DNA of 46,744 nucleotides from Rickettsiales bacterium (GTDB lineage Bacteria; Bacteroidota; Bacteroidia; Cytophagales; Cyclobacteriaceae), in the NCBI GenBank assembly GCA_002729235.1, contig PBTY01000069.1:1-46744 (forward strand), written 5' to 3'. Shown in pieces: positions 4,451 through 20,223 of this stretch. Both the position numbers and the translations under genes were made by a program. Position 1 is the stretch's first letter, and each line of letters opens with the position of its first letter. Under the pieces are notes generated by a model that did no database searches, was not told the origin of the DNA, and saw only the letters and a list, made by a program, of their open reading frames with translations.

Positions 4451-4583
4451 AAATTTAGAGTCGAACTAAAATTCTTCTACTAGCGACTTGACAAGTTTCT
4501 AAAATCATTGCTATCTATCGAAAGATCAATGTCCTTCTTCGAAAGGTATCCTTATGGCCAAACTTCAGTATTACTTTTCTTCC

Positions 4584-4626
4584 CTACTTTTCCATCGATG
4601 AAAAGTAGTCGCAGCGGCGAACCGCC
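4584..4626. repeat. Dispersed palindromic repeat with GGCGGTTCGCCGCTGCGA core
   Basis: CTACTTTT (4584-4591) and AAAAGTAG (4601-4608) form an inverted repeat around a CATCGATG core. They are followed directly by TCGCAGCGGCGAACCGCC (4609-4626), whose reverse complement is GGCGGTTCGCCGCTGCGA. The last 16 bases of that complement are identical to the insertion in the D loop of the tRNA at 18196. This marks a mobile or copy-prone short element. Confidence 0.75.
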
Positions 4627-4979
4627 AAAAATCTAAGCTCCGCGCTTCGGCCCTGTGTTCATTTCTTAACGTTTTTTTGAATTGCAAAACAGGGATAAAA
4701 TAAACTCGCCTATTATAAGTCGTCTCAATTGAGAATATGACTCAACATGGCTCAAACAGTATTTTATCTTTATCTGCTTTGAACTCCAAAAAATCTAAAA
4801 TGAACAAGGGGCGTCCTAATGTCCATAGATTTTAGGGGAGTCATATCCAATAGATGAATGCAAAGTAATTCACCAAAGTTAAATTATGATTGTCACGTGG
4901 GGGTAAAAGCCTAGTTGGTTTTCCTATAGTCGGAGACTGGATAAGTCTGATCAATTATTGAAATAATACGACTAAGAAA
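4627..4979. other. Non-coding gap with a short repeat
   Basis: No convincing reading frame was seen. A GATTTTAGGGGAGTC motif at 4828-4842 matches GATTCTAGGGGAGTC at 364-378 and its inverted copy near 669-684, so it belongs to the repeats of the first kilobase. The promoter of the gene at 4980 must lie in this gap, but no clear TAnnTTTG box was found. Confidence 0.5.
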
Positions 4980-17574: not shown

Positions 17575-18102
17575 CTATTCTTTGATCAGTGCTTGTTGAA
17601 GTTCGGTTATCGTACTGGATTCGCACAACCCTGTTTCTCGTATAAAATATAGGATGTATTGAGCATACTCAGAATGAAGCATCAATTGCTCAATGTCTGC
17701 TGTGTGATTAGATATGTAGTGTATGTCTTCCGAAATATGATCACTCATTCCGAGCCATTCTGGAAGATTGTATTCGATACTAAAGCGAAGAAATCTAATT
17801 TCAATATTGTTTGGACTTTGGTCGGTTGCTTTTTCCATCAATTGATCATACTTTCTAATATAGGCTAGTTTACTGAAAGGATTCCAACTCTCTTTTGCCT
17901 TCATGGCATAGGCACAAGCTTGATAAGCTTGTTTAGGTGCTGCCAATTGTTCCAGATCTTTCACAGAATCAAAGAAGTTTTCTACTTCATCTGCAACCAC
18001 CGCTTGTCTGAAGCCTTCACGCAAATCAATTAACCTGGGTTCTTCAGATAACGGACAGCCGTAGAGAACCATTGAAATCAAAACGCATTTAATGAGAGAC
18101 AT
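17575..18102 (-). CDS. Predicted lipoprotein
   Basis: A 175-residue protein with a short lipoprotein signal peptide: hydrophobic segment 5-15 and lipobox LYGC with Cys16. The mature part is helical, with TPR-like character around 55-110 (YQACAYAMKA, NNIEIRFLRFSIEYN). Homologous unnamed lipoproteins occur in Bacteroidota. It is monocistronic by appearance. Function unknown. Confidence 0.7.
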   Translation of the reverse strand: MSLIKCVLISMVLYGCPLSEEPRLIDLREGFRQAVVADEVENFFDSVKDLEQLAAPKQAYQACAYAMKAKESWNPFSKLAYIRKYDQLMEKATDQSPNNIEIRFLRFSIEYNLPEWLGMSDHISEDIHYISNHTADIEQLMLHSEYAQYILYFIRETGLCESSTITELQQALIKE

Positions 18103-18169
18103 AGGGTAATAATACGAGATATCATTAATTATGTCTCACAAATTAATTTTTAAGTGTAGGATAGGTCGT

Positions 18170-18177
18170 TATATTTG
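18170..18177 (+). promoter_or_regulatory. -7 box for the tRNA pair
   Basis: TATATTTG matches TAnnTTTG. It lies 18 bases before the first tRNA, so transcription would start at about 18184. The upstream TTG element is only partly matched (TTT at 18148-18150). Confidence 0.55.
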
Positions 18178-18215
18178 CAAACCATTTTAGAAAATGCACT
18201 CGTAGTTCAACTGGA

Positions 18216-18231
18216 CGGTTCGCCGCTGCGA
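18216..18231 (+). repeat. Short palindromic insertion in tRNA D loop
   Basis: CGGTTCGCCGCTGCGA can fold as TCGC-CGCT-GCGA. It is identical over 16 bases to the reverse complement of 4609-4624. The neighbouring tRNA has none of these bases between GGA and TA. Confidence 0.75.
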
Positions 18232-18265
18232 TAGAATACCGGATTTCGGCTCCGGGGGTTGAGGG

Positions 18266-18282
18266 GCGGTTCGCCGAGGCGA
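18266..18282 (+). repeat. Short palindromic insertion in tRNA T loop
   Basis: GCGGTTCGCCGAGGCGA can fold as TCGCC-GA-GGCGA. It differs from the D-loop copy at the two central bases (AG for CT) and has one more 5' base. One T of the normal T loop is missing, so the exact boundary is ambiguous. Confidence 0.75.
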
Positions 18283-18310
18283 TCGACTCCTTCCGAGTGT
18301 ACTAATTAAT

Positions 18311-18384
18311 GCACCCATAGCTCAACTGGATAGAGCGCTGGATTTCGGCTCCAGAGGTTGAGGGTTCGACTCCTTCTGGGTGTA
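18311..18384 (+). tRNA. tRNA-Arg(TCG)
   Basis: A canonical 74-base cloverleaf: acceptor GCACCCA/TGGGTGT, D arm GCTC-AACTGGATA-GAGC, anticodon stem CTGGA/TCCAG with loop TTTCGGC (anticodon TCG), variable AGGTT, and T arm GAGGG-TTCGACT-CCTTC. CCA is not encoded. It lies 9 bases after the inserted tRNA and shares its anticodon. Confidence 0.96.
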
Positions 18385-18392
18385 CTGCACTT

Positions 18393-18430
18393 AAAGCTTC
18401 TTGATTGATATCAGGGAGCTTTTTCTTTTT
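18393..18430 (+). terminator. Rho-independent terminator of the tRNA operon
   Basis: A 13-bp stem, AAAGCTTCTTGAT / ATCAGGGAGCTTT with G-T pairs, has a TGAT loop and is followed by TTCTTTTT. It closes a short transcript that would contain both tRNAs. Confidence 0.88.
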
Positions 18431-18495
18431 AAGTTGATCTAGCTTTGAGTCATGTAATTGCGTATGAAAAAATCAAGTTGACCGGTTCTTCAGAA

Positions 18496-20223
18496 TCAGC
18501 TATCTAGTTTGCTTAAGGCCGCATTAAACTCTTCCTTGAATTTTCTAGATACAGGTAGTTCATCGCCGTTTTTCATTTCCACTTTATCAGCGTACTTCAC
18601 TCGTACTTCTTTGATATTAATGATATACGATCGGTGTATCTGGATAAAGAAATCTGGAAGGACTTCAAGAATATCCTTTAGTTTATTTCTATCTACCTCA
18701 GGTTTCGGTTTGTTCCTTAAAGAGAACTCTAGATAATGGCCATCTGATTTGATGGAAACGATTTCCTGGGTTTCCAGAACGGCCTTGCTCTTTAGCTCAA
18801 TGATCTGAGTACGCTGTTTCTCAATTTCCTTCTGAAGATCTGCTTTCTCTTGTTCTTGAGAAACGAGTGTTTCCGTAGATTTTTTGTTTAAGCGAAATAA
18901 CACAAAAGCGATCACCATGAGAAGTGCAGCAGCTCCACCAAATATGATCACTTTATTACTCGAATCTACCACCTCTTTGTTTTTTTCGTCCAGCTCCTGT
19001 TCAGTTACCGCTAATAAGTAATTTGCCTTGGCATCAGCAAGGAAACGTTCACGCTTGGAGTTGGCGGGTGATTCCCTGAACTGATCAAGTTTTACGATAT
19101 ACTCTTTTGCCTTTACGGTGTTTTCATCAGCATTGTATGCATCGATCAATTGATGATAAATTCCAGGCTTCATACCTTGAAGTTGTGGTTTGTTGGCCTC
19201 TCGTTCGGCAACCAATAAATAGGTAATAGCCTCTTGCGGTTGGCCCACCTTTAAATGGTACTGTCCCTTTATGAAGTTTACTCGTAAGACGGCATCCATG
19301 GATCTTGCATTTGATACTTTTTCCAAACTTGCTATCAAATTAGGAATAGAGTCCAGCTGATTGAGCGCCATTTGGCATTCAATGAGATTAGATAAGGCTG
19401 TAAATTCTCCTTGTTCGAATTTGATTTGTCTCGCTACTTGCAATCCAAATTTGAAGTAGTAAAGGGCTGAGTCTATTTGTTCATTTTTTCGAAATGAGTT
19501 AGCCAGGTTATTATAATAAACTGCTTTGGGAGGAATAGGCGGTGCAGATTCAATGTTTACTTGTTTTAATGTTGTGATCGAACGCTCATACAATTCCATG
19601 TCTTGATATATGTGAGCCATATTCATGGCAGTGTTGATTTGCGTGAATGCATTAGCCGAATCCAACCGATATACGGCTTGGAGATGCTCTAAAGCTTTGG
19701 TGTTATCTCCAGATTGTCGATACGCACTTCCTAAATTGCCATGAGTGGAAATTCTGCCTTGAAGATTCGATTCAGGAATTCTACTCAAAACTTCATTGTA
19801 TAAGTAAATAGCACTGTCGATTTCCCTCAATCTTATATAAGTAAGGCCGAGAACATTCTTCGCACGAAATTCAATATCGCTACCTACAGAACTATAATAC
19901 GCTGCACTATTTCGAAGAAATCCTTTGGCTTTGATAAAGTCACGGCTTTTATAGTAACTGATTCCTTTTAAAAACTGGCTAGTCGCATTTGCTAGTTCTG
20001 GATTGATGCTATTATCTGAACCCATTTCAATGCTATCTGCCAACAATAGCACTTCATTAAGTCTATTGTTAGGCAGTGCGTCCCCGTATTGGGTAATGGC
20101 ATGTAATCTTGCTTCTTCTGATTTTGCTTCACTTATCGCTGATTTGAGTGATTCAAAATCAGGTCTTTGAGCTACTGAAATATAAGAGATAACAAGTAAT
20201 AAGGAATAGATGAACAGCTTCAT
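18496..20223 (-). CDS. TPR-containing LytTR transcriptional regulator
   Basis: A 575-residue regulator with a signal peptide (1-18, YISVAQ), extracytoplasmic TPR repeats (about 75-390) and one TM segment (about 423-443, IFGGAAALLMVIAFVLFRL). A cytosolic coiled coil follows (about 448-480), then a C-terminal LytTR DNA-binding domain (about 485-575) with VSIKSDGHYLEF, FIQIHRSYIINIKEV and NGDELPVSRKFKEEF. The layout suggests a one-component membrane regulator that senses a periplasmic partner through its TPRs. It is alone on its transcript; targets are unknown. Confidence 0.9.
   Translation of the reverse strand: MKLFIYSLLLVISYISVAQRPDFESLKSAISEAKSEEARLHAITQYGDALPNNRLNEVLLLADSIEMGSDNSINPELANATSQFLKGISYYKSRDFIKAKGFLRNSAAYYSSVGSDIEFRAKNVLGLTYIRLREIDSAIYLYNEVLSRIPESNLQGRISTHGNLGSAYRQSGDNTKALEHLQAVYRLDSANAFTQINTAMNMAHIYQDMELYERSITTLKQVNIESAPPIPPKAVYYNNLANSFRKNEQIDSALYYFKFGLQVARQIKFEQGEFTALSNLIECQMALNQLDSIPNLIASLEKVSNARSMDAVLRVNFIKGQYHLKVGQPQEAITYLLVAEREANKPQLQGMKPGIYHQLIDAYNADENTVKAKEYIVKLDQFRESPANSKRERFLADAKANYLLAVTEQELDEKNKEVVDSSNKVIIFGGAAALLMVIAFVLFRLNKKSTETLVSQEQEKADLQKEIEKQRTQIIELKSKAVLETQEIVSIKSDGHYLEFSLRNKPKPEVDRNKLKDILEVLPDFFIQIHRSYIINIKEVRVKYADKVEMKNGDELPVSRKFKEEFNAALSKLDS

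Follow-up and report, generated by a model that had tools for sequence, protein, structure and literature searches.

The DNA analysed here (46,744 nucleotides, hereafter the window) belongs to a marine Marinoscillum bacterium and carries a spare tRNA-Arg(TCG) gene whose D and T loops each hold an insert. Each insert is one copy of a non-coding hairpin unit, 15-16 bases long, that is dispersed over this genome and some related ones. We consider it likely that the unit is a very small dispersed mobile-like DNA element that persists in redundant tRNA copies, and that the gene is not a tRNA working in an enlarged form. This explanation draws on the dispersed family itself, a covarying closing pair and some exact empty sites, together with an excess of units in tRNA genes, the close match between the expanded copy and native genes, and the decayed state of the locus in relatives.

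The expanded tRNA-Arg(TCG)-like gene occupies positions 18196..18301 on the + strand (106 nt, or 74 nt without both units) and corresponds to the native-type tRNA-Arg of the genus plus two inserted units. An initial annotation of the window, made from the sequence alone, had its coordinates and anatomy right. It had also measured the D-loop insert correctly: unit 1, CGGTTCGCCGCTGCGA (18216..18231, + strand), is an exact 16-nt insertion relative to the native gene. The T-loop insert, by contrast, had been given as 17 bases (18266-18282) and is best read as 16, because G18266 stands where relatives carry T54; unit 2, CGGTTCGCCGAGGCGA (18267..18282, + strand), is accordingly a net gain of 16 nt whose junction is not clean. 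As had been proposed, the gene folds as a tRNA once the inserts are taken out. With both units left out, ARAGORN calls a tRNA-Arg (tcg), whereas with the units in place 18196-18301 is not called, and Rfam RF00005 gives no match to the expanded gene at the gathering score, nor at E<=1 on 18150-18400. The acceptor stem is fully paired (7/7), yet a complete cloverleaf, as expected of a functional tRNA gene, is interrupted by 16 extra bases in each of the D and T loops. In folding energy the expanded RNA does not stand out (z -0.32), which lends no support to a special fold.

Nine bases further downstream lies an intact tRNA-Arg(TCG) of a different lineage with a GCACCCA acceptor (18311..18384, + strand), which is detected by ARAGORN and by RF00005 (65.0 bits) and is presumably the working gene. 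Behind it, a terminator scan placed a terminator-like hairpin with a T-rich tail at 18393..18422 on the + strand. The terminator that had been assigned to the expanded copy is in fact this one, and a scan of 18000-18600 yielded none on the + strand directly behind the expanded copy. The promoter box described upstream of the expanded gene, TATATTTGC (18170..18178, + strand), is real on inspection by eye, and the same box precedes the tRNA-Arg locus in G001, G002, G003, G004, G005 and MHG1-6 (by eye); MHG1-6 is a Marinoscillum by name that is placed in another genus of the family. We take it to be a putative Bacteroidetes -7 box; a sigma-70-type promoter scan did not list it. A third copy of the unit in the window (4609..4624, - strand) sits within an intergenic repeat that continues as a hairpin (ctactttt...aaaagtag), and a related context was found in L007. 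The whole region 4520-4720 is such an intergenic repeat, made of the unit and the adjoining hairpin, with similar repeats in L001 and L007.

Several searches established that the inserts belong to a dispersed family. Within the window, CGGTTCGCCG occurs four times at <=1 mismatch, compared to a mean of 0.36 in shuffled sequence, where at least four occurrences were reached in 0/100 shuffles. In the host genome (6.55 Mb) the unit CGGTYCGCCGNNGCGR has 15 exact copies. A search of this genome for CGGTTCGCCGNNGCGA at <=1 mismatch returned seven places, all exact (control 0), and at two mismatches 21 places versus 7 for the control; eight of the 14 places so added form a second exact subfamily, CGGTCCGCCGNNGCGG, and the remaining six are at chance level. 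The design common to these copies is a tetranucleotide, CGGT, followed by a 4-bp hairpin, YCGC-CGNN-GCGR. Across 59 genomes this joint pattern has 212 places versus 8 for the reversed pattern and is found exactly in 18 genomes, the host included, thus in 17/58 others, among which six genomes have a single match that may be due to chance. The four matching congeners have 7, 14, 13 and 6 places and the fifth (G005) has 0; elsewhere in the family, three further genera contribute 11, 21 (G032) and 31 (G034), and a genome from a different family (G053) has 78.

The closing pair of the hairpin covaries. Positions 5 and 16 pair in 124 of the 131 distinct copies contained in the loci collected at that stage, as C..G in 70 and as T..A in 54, with seven mixed. 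Deduplication by flank kept 100 of these copies and dropped 31, and among the 100 a purine stands at -2 in 86% and at -1 in 81%, and a T at +1 in 75%. The common feature of the unit's sites is a short target, purine-purine before and T after. Other stems of the same design exist as well, namely TCGG/CCGA (in D loops of L108 and L140), CCGA/TCGG and GCGT/ACGC (the latter in G004), and units with alternative stems number 179 versus 2 for the reversed pattern over 870 kb, a count in which pairing was required and the loci had been preselected as unit-bearing. These related designs with different stems point to a constraint on the hairpin.

The initial annotation had suggested that a short mobile palindrome lands in RNA loops without disturbing the stems. 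For tRNA loops this idea largely stands: the unit forms a dispersed family whose closing pair covaries, some of its empty sites are exact, and it is in excess in tRNA-like sequence, as described below. As a general rule, landing in RNA loops is too strong. Among 100 deduplicated units, which include the tRNA cases, 5 are enclosed by a flanking inverted repeat of at least 6 bp; shuffled sequence gave 1.4 on average and at most 6, and deduplication merges repeat families that do have such stems. A general targeting of hairpin loops is weak on this count.

The units are over-represented in tRNA genes. We took all 55 exact units of five genomes (G000, that of the window, to G004), joined their flanks and asked for a match to a canonical tRNA across the junction, using purine-purine|T sites from loci L001-L129 as controls. 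Twelve of the 55 units lie in tRNA-like sequence versus 41 of 3000 control sites (Fisher p 5e-11, a value that treats copies as independent, which tandem and orthologous copies are not). The twelve represent about six kinds: Arg D loop (two genomes), Arg T loop, Ser T loop (three genomes), Met T loop (three, one tandem array), Leu T loop and Val T loop (two, one locus). All of them fall in a D or T loop, judged by position within the match, and all 12 run in the sense of the tRNA, both strands having been allowed in the search. The count is conservative, since three further sites went unscored: the Arg T-loop unit of G003, a Gln-like copy in G002 and, in G000, a complex site near tRNA-Arg(CCT) (L018).

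The pattern of the T-loop insertion was also searched in other Cytophagales. It matched in 9 of 291 genomes sampled from the order, the host included (control 0), with some of the matches outside tRNAs, and cases that are tRNA-like by eye come, among others, from Dyadobacter, Emticicia, Fibrella, Fibrivirga, Telluribacter, Arundinibacter and Imperialibacter. About 39 of 60 T-loop-type rows are tRNA-like by eye; a full acceptor stem together with T8-R9 was present in 13/60 rows versus 3/600 random places, and 12 of these 13 are tRNAs, L122 being the one that is not, so a fair share of the expanded copies is full length. Some expanded copies are reported by ARAGORN as long tRNAs of 89-92 nt (L131, L156, L160, L163, L166, L172 and L175). 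A scan of named genomes gave 48 stretches with the T-loop pattern, and those from GC-rich non-Cytophagales were dismissed, by eye, as chance occurrences in coding DNA. Carriage by phages was likewise considered, and a viral collection returned a single stretch, whose surroundings are not tRNA-like by eye. An assembly error as the source of the inserts was rejected, since a like arrangement recurs in separately sequenced genomes.

Two further observations concern the structure of these tRNA loci. At L117, L076, L287 and L140, tandem tRNA copies (Asp, Met, Pro and Thr), several with a T-loop unit or a variant of it, stand beside or near an intact gene, with periods of about 117-290 bp and, by eye, a terminator-like tail behind some of the copies. 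At L076, L045, L043, L169 and L177, a second kind of insert, about 14-15 nt long and often palindromic, occupies the anticodon arm of expanded tRNAs, for example CGGCACGCGCAGTG in three Met copies.

To see what an insertion adds, units were compared with relatives in which the site is empty. In four of 11 valid computed comparisons the gain is a clean 16 nt without target duplication: tRNA-Pro(CGG) of Fibrella (empty in a Spirosoma MAG, L227), tRNA-Pro(TGG) of Emticicia (empty in L285), and the tRNA-Arg D loops of the window (G000) and of G003 (empty in native genes), the last two of which probably represent one event. Outside the computed rows, a tRNA-Arg(TCT) of Dyadobacter shows, by eye, an exact 15-nt gain over the canonical copy. 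The other seven comparisons, covering six sites, are unclean, with 1 to 8 bases replaced; they concern the Arg T loops of the window and of MHG1-6, a Thr T loop, a Thr D loop, a Ser T loop and a Met gene. One mark of a mobile repeat, dispersed copies together with exact empty sites in relatives, is found here, with one genome per species compared.

Units also interrupt protein-coding genes. One splits the Transposase_20 domain of an IS110 transposase, where the match ends at profile position 41 and resumes at position 38 in another frame; this gene bears a second break elsewhere, so the unit need not have killed it. In another case the open frame of an IS200-like protein terminates at a unit inside the gene, the second piece of which lacks a Pfam match and was assigned to the gene by eye. 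In all seven cleanly readable insertions the base following the insert fits unit position 5 (A with T, G with C). Five of these were read against an observed empty gene (the D loops of the window and G003, the two tRNA-Pro genes and the Dyadobacter tRNA-Arg), and for the IS200-like and IS110 genes the empty site was deduced from the reading frame. The less clean Thr T-loop, Thr D-loop and Ser T-loop insertions have T at position 5 and A after the unit, but the empty gene has G.

These comparisons bear on the suggestion that the inserts are removed from the RNA like introns to leave a normal tRNA. ARAGORN does call a normal tRNA without the units, and since some units insert exactly, exact removal would restore the RNA. 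Still, this explanation is most improbable: units are also found in intergenic DNA and in transposase genes with the frame lost, 7/11 valid comparisons are not exact, and we know of no bacterial enzyme that removes such inserts. The double-hairpin elements of fungal mitochondria, for their part, are reported not to be removed from transcripts (PMC2800124).

We next turned to the ancestry of the expanded gene. Without its units it is identical to the intact native tRNA-Arg of the sister species G002 at 72/74 positions and to its downstream neighbour at 62/74. Intact tRNA-Arg(TCG) genes of G002, G004, G005 and MHG1-6 start with GCACTCGTAGTTCAACTGG, as does the expanded copy, and the downstream lineage (GCACCCA...) also occurs in G001 and G003. 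By sequence, the expanded gene is the native tRNA-Arg of the genus and the downstream copy is of another lineage. The compensated stem differences that had been noted between the two copies are present, but they reflect the other tRNA-Arg lineage next door: because the expanded copy matches native G002 at 72/74 positions and its neighbour at 62/74, the differences are a matter of kinship and not of co-evolution with the neighbour. Outside the units, the window copy differs from native G002 by two changes only and its stems are paired, so it is either young or still constrained.

In relatives the locus has fared differently. The initial annotation had named stem decay in related genomes as an outcome that would speak against its reading, and such decay is seen in G003. 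The G003 ortholog keeps the D- and T-loop units, has a 14-nt palindromic insert in the anticodon arm, pairs 6/7 positions of the acceptor and has lost the 53-61 pair. In G002 and G004 a 5' half with another palindrome in its D loop stands in front of the intact gene, and in MHG1-6 a 3' half with a T-loop unit stands behind it. No expanded or half tRNA-Arg copy was seen within 330 bases upstream in G001 and G005. More widely, half tRNA copies broken at or near the anticodon loop were noticed at L182, L183, L211, L200, L002 and L053, where 5' halves precede the intact gene and 3' halves follow it.

The halves raise the question of whether the tRNA copies and halves were left behind by integrative elements recombining in tRNA genes, which would have carried the units as features of their att sites. 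The halves end or start at or near the anticodon loop (the 5' half of G002, the 3' half of MHG1-6 and Ser 3' halves in G000 and G001), and beside the native tRNA-Arg stands one of another lineage. It is known that islands in tRNA genes can leave behind a displaced fragment (PMC4383910). However, no element separates the halves examined from the intact gene, which is at most about 100 bases away, 43/55 units of G000-G004 have no tRNA match (a conservative count), and the units sit in D and T loops and not at anticodon-loop junctions. Integrative elements may explain the halves and not the units, and as an account of the whole locus this one is very unlikely.

Whether the expanded gene could still yield a working RNA depends in part on redundancy. 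Intact substitutes are present for seven of the eight expanded tRNA kinds checked: Arg(TCG) of the window, Thr(TGT) of MHG1-6, Arg(TCT) of Dyadobacter and Pro(TGG) of Emticicia, plus Met (G003), Lys and Asn (genomes of L131 and L163), these three by pattern only; the eight kinds did not include a Met-like gene in L172 and a Gln-like copy in L043. An expanded tRNA as the sole carrier of its function was rejected for these seven kinds, the exception being tRNA-Pro(CGG). For the latter, a second copy was not found in Fibrella or Fibrivirga with one 15-mer pattern at <=1 mismatch, and the expanded gene is kept in both genera, in Fibrivirga with two stem mismatches by eye (10-25, 27-43). tRNA-Pro(CGG) is dispensable where tRNA-Pro(TGG) is present. 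If any expanded tRNA works, these two tRNA-Pro(CGG) genes are the most promising candidates.

It is quite unlikely that the expanded tRNA is a working RNA with its own promoter, kept at full length with two elbow hairpins, whether it would serve translation or act as a tRNA-like regulator or decoy. Such a role would agree with the retained box TATATTTGC, with the pairing of the window copy (acceptor and T stem, other stems by reading), with the existence of 12 full-length expanded tRNAs, with the unaccompanied tRNA-Pro(CGG) of Fibrella and Fibrivirga, and with tandem arrays of expanded copies, some having terminator-like tails (L117, L076, L287). Against it stand the intact tRNA-Arg(TCG) 9 bases downstream, the decay of the G003 ortholog and the reduction of those of G002 and G004 to halves, and the fact that a full acceptor stem is found in only 12 of about 39 tRNA-like rows (by eye). 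A forced cloverleaf with both unit hairpins reaches -26.3 versus -39.5 for the best fold, that is 13 kcal/mol above it, a weak argument given that the plain tRNA misfolds too. The proposal that the tRNA works in its expanded form or is processed is unsupported, with the G003 ortholog decaying and an intact tRNA-Arg(TCG) next door.

Small dispersed palindromes are familiar from bacteria, where they usually measure 20-150 bases. Rickettsia palindromic elements (RPE) are likewise dispersed and insert within genes, but they are about 100-150 bp long and known from Rickettsia. The SDR and STRR insertions of heterocystous cyanobacteria are very short mobile-like repeats, some of them in structural RNA such as RNase P RNA; they differ from the unit in length (21-27 nt), in sequence and in phylum. 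The nearest known kinds are the organellar double-hairpin or repetitive hairpin elements and the REP sequences. Mitochondrial elements of the first kind (fungal DHE, sponge RHE, yeast GC clusters) are short dispersed palindromes with conserved helices, some lying within structural RNA genes and kept in the transcript (PMC2800124). They are thus partial parallels to an arrangement of which the initial annotation had known no case (PMC2800124). Unlike the unit described here, which is bacterial, 15-16 nt long, found in tRNA loops and inserted at a short target, they are organellar and are reported from rRNA genes (PMC2800124).

REP sequences resemble the unit in having dispersed copies and a tetranucleotide at the foot of a hairpin, and REP copies have been reported inside tnpA-REP genes (PMC6006769). 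On balance it is unlikely that the unit is of REP type and mobilised by an IS200-like (RAYT / TnpA-REP) transposase. The general design is the same, target duplication is absent at clean sites, and PF01797 matches exist in 6/6 Marinoscillum-genus genomes. Yet REPs carry GT[AG]G and stems of 7-20 bp and flank their gene (PMC6006769), none of which applies to the unit, whose tetranucleotide is CGGT and whose stem has 4 bp. Moreover, the 31 PF01797 matches were examined as 30 loci with flanks of about 1.5 kb, or less where a contig ended sooner, and a single locus holds a unit, which is located within the gene itself. A mobilising enzyme was not found, and the PF01797 loci of the six Marinoscillum-genus genomes are not linked to the unit.

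If the unit is indeed a very small mobile-like element that persists in redundant tRNA copies, it would spread in Marinoscillum and other Cytophagales by means of an insertion enzyme acting in trans. The targets are short, with purines at their end and a T next to them, and clean junctions show no target duplication; tRNA genes offer sites of this sort in the D loop (G18 G19 R | T) and in the T loop (G53 | T54). The insertions would persist mainly in tRNA copies made redundant by a second gene. In the window, the native tRNA-Arg(TCG), probably the ancestral type, would have taken up one unit per loop, with function carried by the intact tRNA-Arg of the other lineage 9 bases downstream, so that the expanded copy would make no working tRNA; the order of duplication and insertion is likewise a matter of inference.

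More tentatively, and with a rather low chance of being right, the 15-16 base hairpin could itself be the mobile unit, written into tRNA D and T loops in the transcript sense by an insertion that is partly templated by the target. The target would then supply the last base of the stem, so that position 5 is T where the target has A and C where it has G, and this might happen, for example, on the folded single strand of a transcribed tRNA gene. The Thr T-loop, Thr D-loop and Ser T-loop insertions argue against such templating, since in these the target base would also have had to change.

To our knowledge, no smaller bacterial mobile unit has been described. A conserved unit of 15-16 bases, with some exact empty sites, an occurrence in more than one Cytophagales family and an excess in tRNA loops, would lower the size limit of what can spread. 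For annotators it provides a rule for recognizing tRNA copies that are overlooked by standard finders or listed by them as long tRNAs, and the covarying closing pair and the short target open the chemistry of insertion to direct tests. Literature searches for the strings CGGTCCGCCGC / CGGTTCGCCGC gave nothing on a bacterial repeat by title or start of the abstract. Nor did we find a description of the unit in the literature on tRNA-loop palindromes, RPE, double-hairpin elements, SDR or STRR, or in that on tRNA insertions, integrase sites and Cytophagales repeats, in searches whose coverage left most subscription journals outside. The places examined of a review of non-canonical tRNAs describe no palindromic loop insertions in bacterial tRNA (PMC7609411), and the string 'palindrom' does not occur in that review.

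Lastly, a few individual loci deserve mention. In G034, the unit lies apparently in frame within two ABC-transporter-like genes (L023 1501-1516 and L039 1501-1516; NG-RSAxA-VQAL by eye). Two loci of G002, L061 and L064, have the 60 bases to the left of the unit in common and diverge from its right end onwards, as if the unit marked a point of rearrangement. Double units 1 base apart, a T-type followed by a C-type, occur at L073, L114 and L118, with a similar left flank in two genera.
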